Assembly (NCBI GenBank): GCA_005778355.1
Contig: SXON01000034.1
Location: forward strand, 1 to 64,000
Direction: 5' to 3'
Length of the DNA: 64,000 nt
Origin: Pseudomonadota bacterium
GTDB lineage: Bacteria; Myxococcota_A; UBA796; SXON01
The translations under genes were made by a program, and so were the position numbers. Positions within the stretch are counted from its first letter, which is position 1; every line of letters starts with the position of its first letter. This document shows, one piece after another, positions 3,613 through 36,178 of this stretch. Below the pieces are notes generated by a model. The model searched no databases and had not been told where the DNA came from. It was given only the letters and a program-made list of their open reading frames with translations.

Positions 3613-5172
3613 CTAGGCGTTGATACTGTTGCTGAGTCTCCCGAGAAGATCGTAGGGGAGGGCCCCCTGCCGCGTGGCGGCGGCCCGCCTGGCCGCCTCG
3701 AGGTCGGCACGGAGCTGGGCCACGAGGGGACCGTGCGACGGCGGCAGGAAACGCTCCAGGTCGTGGCCAAGGACGTTGTACTGGACCGAGAACGCGTAGG
3801 TGGCCCGGGCGGCGTCGATGACCACTTGCTCGCTGGGGAGGGCGTCCACGAGCTCGCGCTCGGTGACGCGCTCGAGCGAGGCGGGGAGCGGGGTACGCAG
3901 CGTGGACGGGAAGACCAGCGGCCAGGCGTAGGCGTCGAACTGCAGGGCGTTGACGAAGCTGTGCTGCGCGGTGGTGAACAGGATGGCCGTGGTGAGCGTG
4001 GCGAGTTCGTCGCGCGTGGTGGGGCACGGCGCCCCGGCGGCGAGCGTCCAGTGTATCAGTGATACATCAGTCGCGACATGTGTATCATCGTGATAGTCGA
4101 GGGCAAGGGCCCCGGCGACGTAGCGAGACAGGGCGTTCCAGGTGGCAAGGGCGTCGTCGCGGTAGGGATAGTGGCCGAGCCCATTGACCCCACGGGACGC
4201 CAGCTCGCGAGGCAAGACCAGCTGCTCGAAGCGGAAGGCGGCCTGGCCGCGACGGAGCAGCTCGACCGTGCCGGTCCAGCCAGCGCTGAAACAACGCTGG
4301 AAGAACCCCTCTGGACCAAGAAGCCGACTGCCTGAGTTCTCGTTGGCCTGCAGCGTGAAATGCGCGTGCGGCGCGAGTAGCCGCGACACGGGATGGGCGT
4401 CGTCGAGGTGGCGCCGGGTGGCGAGCAAGAGGCGCTCGCCCACGACGTGCGTCCACAGGAAGTGACTCGCGGCCTCGTGCACCAGCACCTCGGCGTTACC
4501 AAAGAACATCTTGGCAAGTTGCCAACCGGGGGTGCCATCGGGGCGCGCGAGCTGCGTGCCGCCGGGGCCCTCCAGCACGATCCCGAGGGTGTGGAGCCGT
4601 CCCTCGTGCTCACGGAACACGGCTGCACAGGGGGCCATGAAACGCCCGGGCGCGCAGGGCAGGCCGCGAAGCCAGGGGCGGTAGTCCACGACGAAGAGGT
4701 CGCTCGCGTCTCCCGACAAGGCCTGGACGGCCTCGTCGGGGCTAGGCTCCCGTCGCAGCCACGCCGGGTTGGGCCCGGCCACCCGCAGCTCGGCGAAGGC
4801 TGCGTCGCCGTCCCACCGCTCGGCGAGGGCGCGGGGGTTGCCGAAGCGCCGCGCCAGGGTGGCGGCAGCGGCGAGGTCGGGGAAACGTCGGGGGCTTGTG
4901 ACGGGAATCGCCAGCGCCGCCATCACCGCCAGCTTGGGAACGAGCACAATGAGCGGGTAGCGGTCGCTGGCGGGGGTTGCTACCACGGTGTCGTGCTCGA
5001 AACAGGGATCGAGGCCGAGCTTCTGGCCGATCTGAACCAGCGCGTATTGCGACTGTCGCTCGCGTGCGGGGCGGGGCGGGGCAGGACGGCCCTTGGGTGC
5101 CTGTAGGAAGAACTTCGCCCAGAAGCCCGCGAAGCGCAGGCAGAGGAGCACGAGCCAGAGCCGGGCCCCCAT
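3613..5172 (-). CDS. Lipoxygenase, stand-alone
   Basis: The start is the ATG at 5172, one base overlapping the stop of the P450-lipoxygenase gene (TGATG), so it is the second gene of that operon. The open frame continues upstream but only as an out-of-frame shadow of the fusion gene. The 519-aa product has a hydrophobic N-terminus (about 5-24, possible membrane association) and the lipoxygenase catalytic core: iron ligands H232-x4-H237 in HEAASHFLWTH, the ATRRHL...HPVSRLL segment, H404-x3-N408, and an NSI-type C-terminus. Lipoxygenases insert O2 into polyunsaturated fatty acids to give hydroperoxides. The last residue is Ala instead of the usual Ile; a terminal carboxylate is still available as iron ligand. 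Regiospecificity cannot be read from the sequence. Confidence 0.88.
   Translation of the reverse strand: MGARLWLVLLCLRFAGFWAKFFLQAPKGRPAPPRPARERQSQYALVQIGQKLGLDPCFEHDTVVATPASDRYPLIVLVPKLAVMAALAIPVTSPRRFPDLAAAATLARRFGNPRALAERWDGDAAFAELRVAGPNPAWLRREPSPDEAVQALSGDASDLFVVDYRPWLRGLPCAPGRFMAPCAAVFREHEGRLHTLGIVLEGPGGTQLARPDGTPGWQLAKMFFGNAEVLVHEAASHFLWTHVVGERLLLATRRHLDDAHPVSRLLAPHAHFTLQANENSGSRLLGPEGFFQRCFSAGWTGTVELLRRGQAAFRFEQLVLPRELASRGVNGLGHYPYRDDALATWNALSRYVAGALALDYHDDTHVATDVSLIHWTLAAGAPCPTTRDELATLTTAILFTTAQHSFVNALQFDAYAWPLVFPSTLRTPLPASLERVTERELVDALPSEQVVIDAARATYAFSVQYNVLGHDLERFLPPSHGPLVAQLRADLEAARRAAATRQGALPYDLLGRLSNSINA
4052..4095. repeat. Inverted repeat TGTATCA-G-TGATACA and a degenerate second copy inside the lipoxygenase gene
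   Basis: TGTATCA (4052-4058), one central base and TGATACA (4060-4066) form a perfect 7-base-arm palindrome. A second TGTATCA at 4081-4087 followed by TGATAGT at 4091-4097 is a near copy. Both lie within the coding strand of a GC-rich gene and force unusual A/T-ending codons (GTA, TCA, ATA, ACT). They look like regulator operators, but their position inside a gene makes that uncertain. Confidence 0.4.
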
Positions 5173-7958
5173 CAGATGCCGATCGACAACTTCCACGCCC
5201 TTGGGTCCATGCCCCGGATGGGGAAGGCGCGTCGTTCGTTTCGCGCCTGGACCTCCGCCGAGAGGCGGCGAAGCTCGACCTGGAGGGCCAACAGCGCTGT
5301 CTGGAGCATCGGCGACGGCGTGGCCGCGCTGGGCTGTACCTCGACGATGGCGTTGGCGGCGAGCTGGAAGCGGGCCGACCAGGCGCCCTGCTTCATCAGC
5401 AAGACCGACCGGAGCGAGGGCGGCTGCTCGATCCCGTCGACCAGCGCGCGCAAGTCGAGGATGCCGAGCGACTCGGCGTCGTTCGCAGCGAAGTAGGGGC
5501 TGAAGTCGCCCACCACCTCGTGCGCCACGTTGTTGTAGACCAGTCCGGTGAGGAGTTCGACCAGCGCCTCGCGAGTGTCTACGTGGGCGAAGCGGTCTGG
5601 GAAACGGGGCACCAGTGCCCTGAGGCGCGCGTGCCAGCGGGCGAGGTCGGCGTCCGCTCGGACATCGTCGACTCCTCCGATGGCTGAGTCGACGTAGCGA
5701 CGGAGCACTGCGAAGGCCCCGGGCGCCTCCTCGGCGTAGGCGTGTCCCGGCAGCCGGTCGAGACCGCGCGCAGGAATGTCCACGCCTGGGAAAAGATGGT
5801 CGATGCCGGCCGAGCCCACCACGTTGGTGAACATGCGGAAGGCCTCGTCGCGCGACAAGAATCCGGACCGGATGAAGTAGCTGGTGGGCGAGACCAGGAG
5901 CTTGTAGGCCCAGTCGTTCACCTCTAGCGTGGCGAAGGCGTGCAGGTCGAGCAAGGCGCGGACCGCGTGCCCCGGCGGCAACTCGAAACGACTGAGCGAG
6001 ATGGCCTGCCCCACCACCAGATGGGTGAGCCCGAGATGCTGCACGAAGATCGACGCGCGGGCCTCGAGCGCGTTGGCGAGCCGCTTGGCGCGGCGCCAGC
6101 CTGGGTCGTCCGGGCGCACGGCCTTGCTGCCCAGCGTGATGGCGCTCGGCACCAGCGCGCCGTCGTGTAGCTCGAAGCGGCAGGCCAGCGGCTCGGTGAT
6201 GCCTACGAAGATCGGCGCGTAGTCGAGGCTCCAGCCCTCGCCGTCGGCGCGCAGGAGGAAGGGGTTCGGCCCAGCGGTGCGCAGCGCGACGAAGCTCGCG
6301 TCGTCTTGCAGGTTGCCCCAGGGCGAGGGGTAGTCGAAGGCGCTGAGCCAGGGGTGTCCGGCTGTCCACCGGGCGTGACCGCTCACCGGCCTCCGCCGGA
6401 GGAACATGAAAAACACGCCGGCCAGCACGTAGTACGGGAGCATGTAGGCCAGCCCCATACGGCCCTCGGTGGGGAGGGTGGCGGGGACCATGAGCCCGCC
6501 GGGGATTTCCGGGGTGGCGTAGTGGTCGCGCGCGGGCACGAGCGGCGGCAATCCCACCTGCGCCGCGTGTCGTGTCCGGTAGCTGCGTCGCGACCACACC
6601 TCGACGGATCGGCGTTGGAAACGGCGTAGCGCCGCGAGCATGCGCACCTTCCGGTCGTCGGCCGCCGAGCCCACCGTCGGGACGGTCGCGGCTGCCTGCG
6701 CGTCGCGACCGAAGCTCTGGACGACCACGGCGGCGTCGGGCACGTTGCGGGGCACCAGCCGCGACGTCCACTCGGGGGGCTCGGCGAGCGTCCAGCGCCC
6801 CTCGGCTGCGACCCGGGCGAGAATCCGTCCCACGATGCGCATGGCCTCGTGTCCGCCGGGGCAGGCGCGCGCGTCGGCACCGGGGCTCGCGTCGGGGCTG
6901 GCGGCCGCCCAGCGGAGGGCAGCGAGGGCGGCGCGGTCCTCGAAACGCTCGGGACGAAAGGTGGCCGGGTCGGGGAAGAATCGGGGGTCGCGGTGGACCA
7001 TGGCGATGACCGCCACCACGGTCTCCCCCGCGCGCAGTGAAAAACGCCCGGTGGAGGCGCGCAGCTCGAGGTCGCGCCGCGCCCGCCCGAAGGTGACCGG
7101 CGCCGGTGGGTGCAGTCGCATCACCTCGGCCACGAAGCGGGCGCGGGACCCGGTGTCGCGGGCCACCGGCTCGCGGTGCACCGGGTGACGATCGAGCTCG
7201 GCCACGCCCGAGAGCAAGGCGCCCGACACCGCGCCCCAGGCGTTCATCGGCACGGTGAAGGCGAGGTCGCGGGCCAGCTCGTGAGGCGTGATCCCGTGCC
7301 CGATCGCGATGTCACCCCACTCGCGGGCGGCGGGGCAACACTCGATGAACTCCGCGAGCGCGAGGAAGGCGGCGCGCACCGCCGCGTCGTTGGACTGTTT
7401 CCGGTCGTGCAGGCGCAGGGGGATGATGCCCCTTCCCACGGTTTCCAGCACGCCGGGGGGCGGCTGGGCGTCGAAGAGCCAGGCGCAGAGCACCTTCGCG
7501 ACCAGCTCGTCGATGGCGGCGCCGAGATCGAAGACCCGCAAGCGCCGCCAGCGAGCCAGCGCGGGCTCCACGTGCGTGTCGAGGGCCTCGTCGAGGGCCT
7601 CTGCCCGGGCCGCGTACACCGCGCCGTGCAGCGTCTTGAGCGTGGCGTGGCTGTCGTCGTTGCGGAAGACGAGGGGCACGTGCCCGTCGAGCACCCAGGG
7701 CAGCGGTCGCCGGGGACCGAAACCGTAGAGCCGGTCGAAGTCCGCCGGGTCGGCCAGGTGGTCGAGGGCCTCCTGGTCGATGCAGGCCACGACGGGCCCG
7801 CCGAGGCCCATGCGAAACACGGTGGCGCCATGTTCGCGCCGACGGCGGTCGAGGAAGCCGTGCCAGTCGCGCATGAAGGCGCCGGACTGCAAGATCGGCC
7901 CGAGGAGCGGCAGGCCAACGGTGCCGGGAACGGGCCTCGCGGCGAGCGGCTGGGTCAT
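5172..7958 (-). CDS. CYP74-like cytochrome P450 fused to a lipoxygenase
   Basis: This 928-aa product starts at the ATG at 7958. Residues about 1-430 are a cytochrome P450. HATLKTLH (104-111) resembles the CYP74 HA-x-LK segment. The I-helix PMNAWGA carries Asn239, where ordinary monooxygenases have an AGxxT groove and CYP74 enzymes have an Asn followed by [AS]-[FW]-G. The ExxR is E278/R281, followed by PERF (336-339). A long heme loop with several Pro/Gly ends in Cys366 (ACPGGH). Residues about 435-928 are a lipoxygenase: AGPNP (562-566), H641-x4-H646, H813 and a C-terminal Ile928. The usual Asn iron ligand is Gly817. CYP74 enzymes (allene oxide synthase, hydroperoxide lyase, epoxyalcohol synthase) rearrange the fatty acid hydroperoxides that lipoxygenases make, so the fusion probably channels one into the other. 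It is co-transcribed with the stand-alone lipoxygenase. Confidence 0.88.
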   Translation of the reverse strand: MTQPLAARPVPGTVGLPLLGPILQSGAFMRDWHGFLDRRRREHGATVFRMGLGGPVVACIDQEALDHLADPADFDRLYGFGPRRPLPWVLDGHVPLVFRNDDSHATLKTLHGAVYAARAEALDEALDTHVEPALARWRRLRVFDLGAAIDELVAKVLCAWLFDAQPPPGVLETVGRGIIPLRLHDRKQSNDAAVRAAFLALAEFIECCPAAREWGDIAIGHGITPHELARDLAFTVPMNAWGAVSGALLSGVAELDRHPVHREPVARDTGSRARFVAEVMRLHPPAPVTFGRARRDLELRASTGRFSLRAGETVVAVIAMVHRDPRFFPDPATFRPERFEDRAALAALRWAAASPDASPGADARACPGGHEAMRIVGRILARVAAEGRWTLAEPPEWTSRLVPRNVPDAAVVVQSFGRDAQAAATVPTVGSAADDRKVRMLAALRRFQRRSVEVWSRRSYRTRHAAQVGLPPLVPARDHYATPEIPGGLMVPATLPTEGRMGLAYMLPYYVLAGVFFMFLRRRPVSGHARWTAGHPWLSAFDYPSPWGNLQDDASFVALRTAGPNPFLLRADGEGWSLDYAPIFVGITEPLACRFELHDGALVPSAITLGSKAVRPDDPGWRRAKRLANALEARASIFVQHLGLTHLVVGQAISLSRFELPPGHAVRALLDLHAFATLEVNDWAYKLLVSPTSYFIRSGFLSRDEAFRMFTNVVGSAGIDHLFPGVDIPARGLDRLPGHAYAEEAPGAFAVLRRYVDSAIGGVDDVRADADLARWHARLRALVPRFPDRFAHVDTREALVELLTGLVYNNVAHEVVGDFSPYFAANDAESLGILDLRALVDGIEQPPSLRSVLLMKQGAWSARFQLAANAIVEVQPSAATPSPMLQTALLALQVELRRLSAEVQARNERRAFPIRGMDPRAWKLSIGI

Positions 7959-8006: not shown

Positions 8007-10184
8007 ATGTCCGACCCCCTCCAGTGGTTCCCGCTCCTCCGCAGCATCGACGCGCTCGCGACGATTGACGACGCGACGCTGCGCGACGTGTGCGGCATGG
8101 TCACGCCCGTGCCGGTTCCTGCCGGCGATGTGCTGGTGCGGCAGGGCGAGCCCGGCGACACGCTGCTCCTCGTGGCCCGGGGCAGGCTCGAGCTCCGCGT
8201 GTCGGCGGGCCCCGGCCAGCCGGAGGTGGTGGTGGAGACGGTGGGCCCGGGGCGGGGCATCGGGCTCTTGCAGGTGCTCGTGGGTGGCTCGCGCACCGAG
8301 ACCGCCGTCGCGGTGGAGGACTGCGAGGTGCTCCGCGTAGAACGCGCCGAGTTCCGGCGCTATGCCGACGCGCACCCCGAGGCCCTGCGCAAGCTCACGG
8401 AGCTGGTGCGTGGGCGCCTGCGTTTCGCCGACCTCGTGGCCCAGCTCTCCCGGGCGCTCGGGCCACCGAGCGCGACGCTCCGGCAGCTCCTGTCCGAAGA
8501 AGTCGAGTGGGTGGAACTGCGCCGGGGGAAGGCGCTCTACAAGGCGGGGCAGCCGGTCGACGCCCTCTTCGTGCTCCTCTCAGGCCAGCTCACGCTCTCG
8601 CGCTACGGCACCGTGGGCGAGATGCGGCACAGCATCGTCGGGCGGGGGGAGTTGCTGGGGCAAGTGGCCTACCTCGCGGGTGGCACCCACTTCGAGACGG
8701 CGACCGCTCACCGCGACGTGCTCCTCGCCAAGATCCCCGTGGCGCACGTGCCGGCGCTGCTCGGCGACCACTCCGGCAGCGGGCAGGCGATGGCCCGGGC
8801 CCTCGCCGAGCGCATCGCGCGTCCCCTGTTCCAGCAGACGCACCACGCGCTCGACCAGCAGGTGATCATCCCCGCGCACCCCGGCGCCCCAGCCGAGGAG
8901 TTCGCCCGGACGCTGGTGGAGGAGCTGTCGGCCGGCGGTCCCACCCTCCTGGTCGATACCGCGGCTCTGGCGCGCTTCGGGGTGATCGACGCGGCCGGGA
9001 GCCTCGCCGCCGATCACCCGAGCTGGCTGCGTTTCACCGCATTCCATGACCGTGTTTCCCAGGAGTATGACTACGTCATCTTCATCGCGCGTCCCGAGGA
9101 GGCCGGGTGGCTGCGCGTGTGCGCAGGGCTCACCGACAAGCTCGTCTTCGTCTGCGACGCGACGCGCGACCCCGAGCAGACGGAGCTCCCCGACCTCGCC
9201 GGTCGCCGGGCGATGTTGCTCTTGATGCACCCGGCAAACACCGCGCGGCCCTCGGGCACGCAGGGCTGGCGCAAGAAGAAGCAGGTGGCGCTGCATCTCC
9301 ACTTACGAGCGGGGGACCGTGCCGACGTGGCGCGGGTGGCGCGCATGATTTCCGGACGCGTCGTCACCCTGACACTCGGCGGCGGCGGCGCCCGGGGACT
9401 GGCCCACATCGGCGTGGTCCGCGCCCTGCGCGAGGCCAAGATCCCGATCGACTACCTCGGGGGCACCTCGATGGGGGCGATCATCAGCGCGCAGGTGGCG
9501 CTCGGGCTCAGCTACGAGGAGATGATGGACTTGAACCGGCGGATCATCGCCATCAAACCCTTCGAGGAGTACACCCTGCCGATGGTGGCTCTGTTGCGAT
9601 CCAGTCGCATCGAACAGGCGGCGCGGATGGCCTTTGGCGACGTGATGATCGAGGACCTGTGGTTGCCGTGGTTTGGCGTGGCCGCGGATCTCACCACGGC
9701 GGAGATGGTGGTGATGGAGTCCGGTCCGGTGTGGCTGGCCACCCGGGCCAGCGGTTCGCTGCCGGGGGTGGCCGTGCCCGTGCCCTACCAGGGACGCCTA
9801 CTCATCGATGGAGGGGTGATCGACAACTTGCCGCTCGGGACCATGCGCCAGCGCATCCGGGGCCATCACGTGGTGGTGGACGTGAGCCCACCGCGCGACG
9901 AGAGCTTCGCCATCGAGGCGATCCCCAGCCCCTGGAAGCTCTTGTGGGCGCGGGTGACGGGACGTTTCCCGAAGCCGCCGCCGAGCATCGTGGACATCAT
10001 GCTGCGGACGACGACGCTCGAGAGTGGTCGCCGGGCGAACGAGGTGTACCGACAGGCCGACCTCGCGCTCTTGCCGCCGGTGGCCGACTTTGGGTTGCTC
10101 ACGTTCGACCGGATCGACGAGATCGTGGAGACGGCGTATCGGTATACGTGTGAGCAACTGGCAGGGTGGAAGCCGGTGAGCTAG
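8007..10184 (+). CDS. Patatin-like phospholipase with two cyclic-nucleotide-binding domains (NTE-like)
   Basis: The start is the ATG at 8007 and the product is 725 aa. Two cNMP-binding/Crp-type beta-roll domains occupy roughly residues 1-140 and 160-280, then a linker Rossmann-like region. The patatin domain begins with the oxyanion motif GGGGARG (about 457-463), the nucleophile in GTSMG (Ser488) and the catalytic Asp in DGG (about Asp601). The architecture matches the neuropathy-target-esterase type of phospholipase/lysophospholipase, which hydrolyses membrane phospholipids to release fatty acids. It is transcribed divergently from the lipoxygenase/P450 operon 48 bases away, so it may supply the fatty acid substrate (inference). 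A cyclic nucleotide or other small ligand may gate the activity, but conserved phosphate-binding residues were not verified. Confidence 0.85.
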   Translation: MSDPLQWFPLLRSIDALATIDDATLRDVCGMVTPVPVPAGDVLVRQGEPGDTLLLVARGRLELRVSAGPGQPEVVVETVGPGRGIGLLQVLVGGSRTETAVAVEDCEVLRVERAEFRRYADAHPEALRKLTELVRGRLRFADLVAQLSRALGPPSATLRQLLSEEVEWVELRRGKALYKAGQPVDALFVLLSGQLTLSRYGTVGEMRHSIVGRGELLGQVAYLAGGTHFETATAHRDVLLAKIPVAHVPALLGDHSGSGQAMARALAERIARPLFQQTHHALDQQVIIPAHPGAPAEEFARTLVEELSAGGPTLLVDTAALARFGVIDAAGSLAADHPSWLRFTAFHDRVSQEYDYVIFIARPEEAGWLRVCAGLTDKLVFVCDATRDPEQTELPDLAGRRAMLLLMHPANTARPSGTQGWRKKKQVALHLHLRAGDRADVARVARMISGRVVTLTLGGGGARGLAHIGVVRALREAKIPIDYLGGTSMGAIISAQVALGLSYEEMMDLNRRIIAIKPFEEYTLPMVALLRSSRIEQAARMAFGDVMIEDLWLPWFGVAADLTTAEMVVMESGPVWLATRASGSLPGVAVPVPYQGRLLIDGGVIDNLPLGTMRQRIRGHHVVVDVSPPRDESFAIEAIPSPWKLLWARVTGRFPKPPPSIVDIMLRTTTLESGRRANEVYRQADLALLPPVADFGLLTFDRIDEIVETAYRYTCEQLAGWKPVS

Positions 10185-34570: not shown

Positions 34571-36178
34571 ATGGCCACCAAAGACCAAGATCTCGTCAAG
34601 CAAAAGCAGAAGCCCGGCACCACGGCGGCCGCGAAGGCGCCTCCGGCCGCCGAGGCGCCGCAAGCCGGGGTGAAGCTCCAGCAGGGCGCCACGGCCGACA
34701 TGCAGCAAAATGTGGGCAATAGCGGCCTGAAAGACCTCATCTCCGACCAGGAGAAGAAGGCCGGGCCCGCGAAGGACCCGTCGCGCATGGGCCCCGATGA
34801 GATGAAGGCTCAGGCCAAGGCCGACGCCGAAAAACTGTCCGCGAAGAAGGGAAAGAGCACGGCGGGCAAGGATGCCCCGAAGCCGGGCGACGAGGCTGGC
34901 CTCGAGGCCAAGGAGAAGGCCAAGCTCGAGGCCGACGCGTCGCGCAAGAAGAAGGAAGCCGACGCGGAGAAGCAGAAGGTGCAGGCCGAGGAGGCCAAGA
35001 AGGCCACTGCCAAGAAGAAGCCGGCGGCCAAGGCGGGCGCGAAGGCCGAGGCGAAGACGGAGGCCAGGGCTCCGGGCGCGAAGGGCGAAAAGGCCGCCAA
35101 GGCCAAGCCAGCCGCCGACAAGAAGAAGCTCGCGAAGGCCGCCGGGAAGGCGGTGGCGCCGACCAAGAAGGGCGAGCTCGAGCCGGGCAAGGAGGCAATC
35201 CGGAAGACGGCCAATGTGAAGAAGGTCGACGCCAAGGAGGCCGACGCCGAGCACGCCAAGGCCAAGGCTGAGGTCGCGAAGGACGCGGCGAGCAAGAAAA
35301 AGACCGAGGTGAAAGACCCGAAGGCCGCCAAGACCAAGATCGAGCAGGCAGGTAAGCGCGCCGCCGACAAGAAGACGGTGGCGGCCGACGCGGCGAAGAA
35401 GGTCCAGGAGGCCGAGGAGCAGAAGTCGAAGGCCGCCCCCGCCGCGCTGCAGAAGCCCGGTACGAAGGACGACCCCAAGAGGGCGAAGGCCCCGGGCAAG
35501 AAGGGCGCTGCGGAGATGGCCAAGGGCGGCAAGGATGCCGCGGAGGAGAAGGAGCCGGCCAAGGCCAAGCAGGCCAAAGACGTGGAAGCGGAAAAGGGCG
35601 TGGCCCGGCGGGAGTCGAACGACCGCAAGACGGAGGCCGCCGAGGTGGCCGCCGTGGCCGCGAGCCGCCAGCTCGACGAGGTGAAGGGCAAGAAAGCCGC
35701 GGCCGAGGTGGAGGCCGACAAGGACAAAGATCCTGCCGCCGCCCAGGCCAAGTCGAAGGAAGCCGAGGCCCGCGCCGCCGAGGAGAAGGCGCTCGAGGAG
35801 AAGATCGACAAGAAGGACGAGGAGGTCGAGAAGGTCGAGGACGACAAGGAGAACGACGCCAGCGTCAAGGAGGTGAGCCGGGCCAACGATCTCGGCGCCT
35901 TCGACGGCGACACGGTCACCCTCGTCGGCATCTACGTGCCTCGCCCCACCGAGGCCGGCGGTCCCCAGCTCGGCCACGCCTCGGTGATGATCGGCAACCA
36001 GGAAGTGAAGCTTGGCAAGGACGTGCGCCCGATGGCGGAGTTGCTCCGCTTCGCCGGCGAGCGCGTCGCAATTACCGGCAAGCTCGACCTCAAGAAAGAC
36101 GCCGGCGGCAACGCCCTCGACCCCAGTCGCAAAGAAAAGCCGGTGATCACTGGCTTCCGCGCGCCGCACAAGAGGTAA
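34571..36178 (+). CDS. Lys/Ala/Glu-rich low-complexity protein with a small C-terminal domain
   Basis: The 535-aa product is not a recognised family. After about 60 residues that include MQQNVGNSGLKDLI, residues ~65-435 are almost entirely Lys, Ala, Glu and Asp with AKAK, KAEA and KKK runs, predicted long helix or coiled coil, and no Cys or Trp seen. Residues ~440-535 look folded: strands in DTVTLVGIYV, ASVMIG and RVAITGKL suggest a small beta-barrel (OB-like). The frame is real despite low complexity because the C-terminal domain is normal protein and the kinase gene follows nine bases later. A DNA- or polymer-binding scaffold is possible. The short VGN motif resembles eCIS-associated proteins, but only weakly. 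Confidence 0.7.
   Translation: MATKDQDLVKQKQKPGTTAAAKAPPAAEAPQAGVKLQQGATADMQQNVGNSGLKDLISDQEKKAGPAKDPSRMGPDEMKAQAKADAEKLSAKKGKSTAGKDAPKPGDEAGLEAKEKAKLEADASRKKKEADAEKQKVQAEEAKKATAKKKPAAKAGAKAEAKTEARAPGAKGEKAAKAKPAADKKKLAKAAGKAVAPTKKGELEPGKEAIRKTANVKKVDAKEADAEHAKAKAEVAKDAASKKKTEVKDPKAAKTKIEQAGKRAADKKTVAADAAKKVQEAEEQKSKAAPAALQKPGTKDDPKRAKAPGKKGAAEMAKGGKDAAEEKEPAKAKQAKDVEAEKGVARRESNDRKTEAAEVAAVAASRQLDEVKGKKAAAEVEADKDKDPAAAQAKSKEAEARAAEEKALEEKIDKKDEEVEKVEDDKENDASVKEVSRANDLGAFDGDTVTLVGIYVPRPTEAGGPQLGHASVMIGNQEVKLGKDVRPMAELLRFAGERVAITGKLDLKKDAGGNALDPSRKEKPVITGFRAPHKR

Follow-up and report, generated by a model that had tools for sequence, protein, structure and literature searches.

A single gene in the stretch of DNA analysed here (64,000 nucleotides in full length, hereafter the window) encodes a cytochrome P450 of the CYP74 clan and, behind it in the same chain, a lipoxygenase (LOX). 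We observed this architecture, the clan membership of the P450, the LOX family of the other half and the gene neighbourhood. On these grounds, we consider it probable that the fusion is a one-chain oxylipin synthase in a self-contained bacterial oxylipin pathway; every reaction step in that reading is inferred, and no activity has been shown. Together with a second LOX and a lipid-releasing enzyme encoded beside it, the fusion suggests that bacteria may have a compact pathway leading to oxidised fatty acids of a hormone-like kind.

The features referred to below are the following:

3613..5172, minus strand: second lipoxygenase, P0002 (519 residues from Met), with His/His/His/Asn and ending in Ala (Pfam 7.9e-29)
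5172..7958, minus strand: P450-LOX fusion gene, P0001 (928 residues, one open frame without a stop)
5175..6641, minus strand: lipoxygenase domain, about residues 440-928 (phmmer, family profile, identity to a stand-alone LOX)
5175..5177, minus strand: Ile928, C-terminal residue (sequence)
5508..5522, minus strand: His813, iron ligand, and Gly817 at the usual Asn-ligand position (HEVVG; alignment)
6021..6038, minus strand: His641 and His646, iron ligands (alignment)
6642..6713, minus strand: linker of about 24 residues, about residues 416-439 (sequence; the relatives' P450s end and the stand-alone LOX P0006 starts about here)
6714..7958, minus strand: CYP74-clan P450 domain, residues 1 to about 415 (Pfam p450; best PDB match CYP74A; tree)
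6861..6863, minus strand: Cys366, haem ligand; the haem loop from Trp350 to Cys366 is as long as that of AtAOS (alignment)
7242..7244, minus strand: Asn239 in the I-helix groove (VPMNAWGAVSG), replacing the acid-Thr pair (alignment)
8007..10184, plus strand: phospholipase P0010 (725 residues): cNMP-binding (two stretches), NTE P-loop-like and patatin domains

Continuity of the fusion gene

At the level of the reading frame, the minus strand from 7958 to 5172 holds 928 codons and zero stops. One of the other two frames of this strand has 10 stops, and the other has 1 stop and an open run of 712 codons. Since the DNA is GC-rich and a second frame stays open for so long, the openness of the fusion frame alone is weak evidence, and the case for the fusion is carried by the domain matches. 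GC3 is 0.91 for residues 1-405, 0.94 for 406-440 and 0.89 for 441-928; it runs on through the linker, and thus the junction looks coding. The first-pass annotation had read a P450 and a LOX as one polypeptide, which the continuous frame and the matches to both halves bear out. The residues it had named (N239, C366, H641, H646, H813 and the terminal Ile, I928) are where it had placed them; the ExxR it had claimed is E278/R281, joined by R338, and HATLK is present in the translation.

An internal start at Met440 was considered and set aside. This codon has a 4-base SD-like match upstream, as do 33 of the 272 internal in-frame ATGs in the window's frames (crude gene caller), so the match is ordinary and not above background. 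The structure model covers the P450 half alone, where pLDDT mostly exceeds 80 between residues 21 and 345 but falls at 81-100, at 171-190 and in the haem loop. For the LOX half, pLDDT is below 50 over most of residues 455-928.

The P450 half and the CYP74 clan

Pfam p450 matched the fusion at E 1.2e-12, and the best phmmer match of the P450 half among solved structures was AtAOS (2.9e-12). A profile of eight family P450s (A3) matched CYP74A1 with 123 bits over positions 5-413 of 449, and the next non-CYP74 match was CYP51 with 81 bits. By fold, ranks 1 to 6 of the Foldseek search with the P450 model were all plant AOS (CYP74A) structures, at 15-20% identity in the fold alignments. Such values do not meet the strict definition of the CYP74 family, which requires >40% identity according to the available text of PMC10813956. 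The NCBIfam labels ApyO (1e-10) and CYP152 peroxygenase CypC (1.2e-8) were far under their cut-offs and were not adopted.

The P450 tree had 29 rows, with eight bacterial family rows, only two plant CYP74A rows, and no animal or Methylobacterium rows. The eight bacterial rows and CYP74A formed one side of a 100/100 branch, within which the window's P450, P0003, P0004 and CYP74A grouped at 97/96. In AU tests, a tree keeping the bacterial rows apart from CYP74A was narrowly rejected (p 0.041); the alternative in which the window's P450 branches immediately outside the group of family and CYP74A was not rejected (p 0.108). An alignment placing the P450 outside the clan would have refuted the CYP74-like assignment of the first-pass annotation. 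That comparison was made and the assignment withstood it, with CYP74A the nearest solved relative by sequence, profile, fold and tree and the second AU alternative still standing. Judged on these alignments, the P450 half belongs to the CYP74 clan.

The hallmarks of the clan, as listed in the available part of PMC8124189, are an I-helix Asn, the ERR triad, a PPV domain, and a haem-loop insertion with its Cys. The triad is complete (E278, R281 and R338) and invariant in alignment A3, and the haem loop is met by the AtAOS-like Trp-to-Cys length and by C366. At the PPV domain the window has PPAPV, and the other family rows have PPAPI, GRPR, AGPI or PRPR. Of the distinct family sequences, 12 reach the I-helix column and all of these have the Asn; eight of the 12 built the profile.

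Beyond the family, many P450 rows did not cover the I-helix column, and Asn was found in two that did. One of them, L063, reads AGNETT and retains the acid-Thr pair; the other, L092, reads LNVLRPTTW, which we take to be a peroxygenase-type motif, and lies outside the clade in the tree. The Phe/Leu toggle of AtAOS aligns at or beside Gly79/Phe80 of the window in the profile alignment, and the product type cannot be read from it.

The lipoxygenase half and its fourth iron ligand

For the C-terminal half, Pfam alone is insufficient as proof: the Lipoxygenase model (PF00305) gave 11 bits, below its cut-off of 23.6. The lipoxygenase proposed at this end by the first-pass annotation is nevertheless supported by a phmmer match to a Pseudomonas LOX (1.6e-7, residues 620-817), by 40% identity to a stand-alone LOX, and by a 12-row LOX family profile (A4) that matches human ALOX15B at 1.9e-65. 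The three iron His are kept in all 12 rows of A4 and in all 27 of a larger set, and I928 provides the terminal Ile whose carboxylate is expected in a LOX.

The fourth ligand, expected to be Asn or His/Ser, is not met in the LOX half, which has Gly817 there, a point absent from the first-pass annotation. In A4, the position is Gly in nine of the 12 rows and Asn in three (P0002, P0011 and L036). The nine Gly rows are the window's LOX half, the LOXs of loci with a family P450 or a catalase-type allene oxide synthase (AOS), and near kin; Gly-type L037 has neither neighbour in the fetched stretch. In the 27-row LOX tree, a 98/93 branch separates the nine Gly rows from the remaining 18, all of which have Asn. 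Human ALOX15B has Ser in this column (PDB profile alignment).

The LOX profile was searched in 11 genomes at a threshold of E 1e-5. G019 (91% complete) has a single LOX match, of the Gly type and adjoining a catalase-type AOS, and G009 (92% complete) has two, both of the Gly type. As these two genomes have Gly-type matches only, the Gly type has to be active provided that each haem enzyme there is supplied by its own LOX. Thus, Gly-type LOXs are probably active, an inference for which no activity has been shown. Both Gly- and Asn-type LOXs occur in G051, G006, G012 and G020, and G007 has a Gly-type LOX and a short piece of no determinable type.

In G013, which also has a Gly-type LOX, we observed three neighbouring LOX-like frames (C340; L193, L198 and L200) with Ser, Gln and Ala as the fourth ligand.

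Adjacent genes and loci of the P450 relatives

Two genes beside the fusion had gone without mention in the first-pass annotation: the second LOX and the NTE/patatin gene. The ATG of P0002 and the TGA of the fusion share one base (TGATG), and P0002 is the only match to the Pfam LOX model in the whole genome of the window at E 0.001. P0010 is divergent from the fusion and lies 48 bases from its start. This neighbourhood of a LOX and a phospholipase fits the oxylipin role that had been proposed, with catalysis inferred.

A further frame of the window (34571-36178, plus strand) encodes 535 residues of low complexity, very rich in Lys, Ala and Glu.

The fusion was found in the window's genome only, both among the 63 genomes of the order and among 377 genomes of the phylum (at most four candidates per genome scored in the latter). 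A plasmid search gave no match to it, and a scan of named genomes with P0001 gave no relative. The family P450 profile found 12 places in 10 of the 377 phylum genomes at E 1e-25, again with at most four candidates per genome scored, so some may be missed. A P450 of G156 (L137) passed this threshold, but it lacks the Asn and lies outside the clade, and we left it out of the counts.

Eleven family P450 loci were counted, the window included and G156 excluded. Four of them, namely the window and the three rows that came up alongside it, went into the first profile and are not independent finds; LOX and patatin neighbours played no part in finding the loci. Within the fetched loci, a LOX was present in seven, an NTE/patatin gene in five, and either or both in 10 (six, four and nine of 10 without the window). 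The one locus with neither gene, in G013, has its P450 where a 5,029-base contig ends. The patatin gene of G054 is about 3 kb from the P450, and in G020 (C264) one gene lies between P450 and LOX. The relatives carry P450 and LOX as separate genes, not fused. G009, reached via its LOX, likewise pairs a LOX with a P450, the latter spread over two frames.

Broken P450 genes, with a stop or frame change, were seen beside open LOX genes in G007 (L130:7114-8478, minus strand) and G009 (L138:8661-9738, minus strand).

A different joined chain was found in G051 (L132:1631-4060, plus strand), where a CYP74-like P450 follows an epoxide hydrolase-like domain (5ng7, 2.2e-26) in one frame of 809 codons from the first start, or 751 from a later Met, adjoining a Gly-type LOX. 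By its sequence this is a second kind of oxylipin fusion, with its activity inferred.

Not every family P450 comes with a LOX. G054 (88% complete; locus L035) had no LOX match at E 1e-5, and G144 (97% complete; L133) had one weak match (2.1e-10) with Trp at the first His; these two family P450s lie near an NTE/patatin gene, without a clear LOX in the genome. The scan of named genomes with profile A1 covered 80 loci of at least 338 relatives and gave one family member, L050 (Umea1p3_bin-980), whose match place is that of G020:C1. Among the other loci of those 80, the rows reaching the column showed no family I-helix motif, and many rows did not reach it. Searches of the classes of G144 (52 genomes) and G156 (57 genomes) gave nothing new. 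One family member is on the public contig CAIMSU010000001.1 ('uncultured proteobacterium').

Catalase-type allene oxide synthases beside the same lipoxygenases

Searching the phylum for the subfamily of the LOX half at 1e-30 returned two of 377 genomes, the window's own and G019 (at most four candidates per genome scored). In G019 (L033:8292-13926, minus strand), a patatin, a catalase-type AOS homologue and a Gly-type LOX are consecutive. The AOS homologue matches coral AOS-LOX at 2.8e-71 over residues 30-401 of 405, and the LOX, the nearest kin of the fusion's LOX half (40%), starts 9 bases after the AOS gene.

Relatives of this catalase-type AOS were found at 14 places in 13 of the 377 phylum genomes at 1e-20. 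We examined 12 of them in stretches of 6-14 kb (G052 was left out, and G019 was already covered). Nine of the 12 have a LOX in the stretch, which is more than 5 kb away in two (L162 and L165) and in the same chain in one (L163). The window's genome has no catalase-type AOS relative in the P0007 search at 1e-20, and the fusion does not carry a catalase-related haem domain, its own being a P450 by Pfam. From the P450 and AOS loci together, LOX genes in this phylum are often near, or joined to, one of two unrelated haem folds that convert hydroperoxides.

The same-chain case was in G363, from the window's phylum: a catalase-type AOS-LOX fusion of 774 residues (L163:4751-7075, plus strand).

Substrate supply

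The genome of the window has two PfaD-family genes over cut-off and three fatty-acid desaturases. One of the PfaD genes lies beside a PfaA-like polyketide synthase gene (the two together at C242; L174:1-5132, minus strand); the latter is cut by the contig end and scored 915 bits against a cut-off of 1010. The pair is likely a polyunsaturated fatty acid (PUFA) synthase, as predicted from sequence. Neither family is specific, because control genomes also pass (PfaD in one of 14, desaturase in five of 14). Endogenous PUFA is plausible in the window's organism. The Pfa contigs may also stem from another cell, given 85% completeness and 6.3% contamination of the genome.

Proposed pathway and alternative explanations

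In the route that we propose, the divergent NTE-type patatin would release a polyunsaturated fatty acid. The LOX half, helped or fed by P0002, would then add O2 to it and give a fatty acid hydroperoxide, as inferred from the iron ligands. The hydroperoxide would pass to the N-terminal P450, which should need neither O2 nor a reductase. From CYP74 enzymology, Asn239 and the Cys-bound haem would bring about homolysis of the O-O bond and rearrangement of the radical. The product would most likely be an epoxyalcohol, with an allene oxide or an aldehyde as the other options, and the fusion would limit the loss of hydroperoxide. The epoxide hydrolase-like fusion of G051 points to an epoxide product; we lean to the epoxyalcohol because of that fusion and of the Myxococcus LOX and epoxide hydrolase route described in the accessible part of PMC5760719. 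The first-pass annotation had proposed a one-chain oxylipin synthase making one of these three products. Its proposal gains support from the architecture, the clan, the LOX family and the neighbourhood, and its activity and product remain inferred.

Several points stand against the synthase reading: Gly817 in place of the Asn ligand, the score of the LOX half below the Pfam cut-off, the presence of the fusion in one genome, the family P450s of G054 and G144 in genomes without a clear LOX, the AU alternative with the window's P450 outside the clan group, and P0002, a separate LOX that could make the hydroperoxide alone. The LOX half might not be a dioxygenase, acting instead as a docking domain or a hydroperoxide isomerase, with P0002 making the hydroperoxide for the P450. 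The Gly of nine of the 12 aligned LOXs, set against the Asn of P0002, P0011 and L036, speaks for this, as do the sub-threshold Pfam score, the overlap of P0002 with the fusion's stop, and G012 and G020, which likewise carry both types. We regard it as unlikely, though not to be dismissed, for the LOX half retains its three His and C-terminal Ile, G019 and G009 have Gly-type matches only, and ALOX15B has Ser at the column. Besides, the Asn694Gly mutant of soybean lipoxygenase has been characterised and is said to keep some activity.

Two further explanations concern the fusion itself and its P450. The joined gene could be an artefact of an assembly join, a lost stop codon or internal initiation at Met440, given that relatives carry the parts as separate genes, that the genome is in 252 contigs (85.3% complete, 6.3% contamination) and that Met440 has its SD-like match. 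We find this very improbable in view of the 928 codons without a stop, the coding make-up through the linker and the ordinary nature of that match; the order of haem enzyme then LOX also recurs in coral AOS-LOX and in L163. We give hardly any credence to the idea of a chance fusion in which the P450 half works as a conventional monooxygenase using O2, or as a peroxygenase of fatty acids. This idea can draw on the weak CypC and ApyO matches, far under cut-off, and on L063 and L092, which have the I-helix Asn outside the family; against it, the P450 half has neither the acid-Thr pair nor FxxGxRxC, its haem loop is of CYP74 length, CYP74A is best by every comparison made, and L092 falls outside the clade.

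Returning to the one-chain synthase, a broader reading joins all these parts into a bacterial eicosanoid-like pathway. Self-made PUFA (PfaA/PfaD) would be released by a cyclic-nucleotide-controlled NTE phospholipase and oxidised by a canonical LOX and by the one-chain, Gly-liganded LOX-CYP74 enzyme, which would make an epoxyalcohol-type signal. The bacterial CYP74 family would be old enough to be the stock of plant CYP74, and CYP74 and catalase-type enzymes would have been swapped beside the same LOX. As a whole, we offer this only tentatively, as a possibility that is open to real doubt.

Comparison with known systems

Coral LOX has a PLAT domain. In fungal DOX-CYP proteins, the dioxygenase comes first in the chain and the P450s are not known to belong to CYP74. 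The first-pass annotation knew of no well-characterised P450-LOX fusion, and our literature search agrees: none was found described in the open-access PMC articles searched, where part of the matches was listed. Within that scope, one-chain oxylipin synthases are a known kind, and the CYP74-LOX domain pair was not found described.

Corals have catalase-related AOS/HPL-LOX fusions; like the protein described here, coral AOS-LOX places a hydroperoxide-converting haem enzyme N-terminal and a LOX C-terminal in one chain, but its haem part is catalase-related and not a P450 (PMC5617202, available sections). The cyanobacterial catalase-LOX fusions of Acaryochloris and Anabaena are likewise bacterial, with haem enzyme and LOX in one chain, whereas their haem part is of the catalase type (PMC11719350, in the text available). 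Fungal DOX-CYP proteins also join a dioxygenase to a self-sufficient P450 (AOS, EAS or LDS), but the dioxygenase there is a COX-related haem enzyme (PMC13049297, from the portion available).

The CYP74 clan comprises plant CYP74, animal CYP440/443 and a Methylobacterium HPL, as far as the accessible parts of PMC10813956 and PMC8124189 go. Its members share the I-helix Asn, the ERR triad and the long haem loop with the fusion's P450; they differ in that no LOX fusion was found in those parts, and the identity to CYP74A is 15-20%. The Myxococcus xanthus hepoxilin/trioxilin route, with LOX and epoxide hydrolase, is also a bacterial path from PUFA by LOX to epoxy and trihydroxy products, but the text of PMC5760719 at hand names those two enzymes and no CYP74-type P450.

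The CYP74-LOX chain would be a further independent fusion of a dioxygenase with a haem enzyme, beside the coral and cyanobacterial catalase type and the fungal COX-like DOX-P450. Its two components are of the enzyme kinds that plants keep as separate proteins in making jasmonates and green-leaf volatiles. The chain offers an expressible system in which to test LOX-to-CYP74 channelling, and a natural LOX with Gly for Asn. The gene clusters predict oxylipin signalling in little-known bacteria, and for the still unsettled question of how plant CYP74 arose, the bacterial family P450s provide outgroups.

On that origin, the plant CYP74A rows, both of odd letter make-up, branch inside the bacterial family (97/96). 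With two plant rows only and from sequence comparison alone, this gives a hint that plant CYP74 may derive from bacteria.
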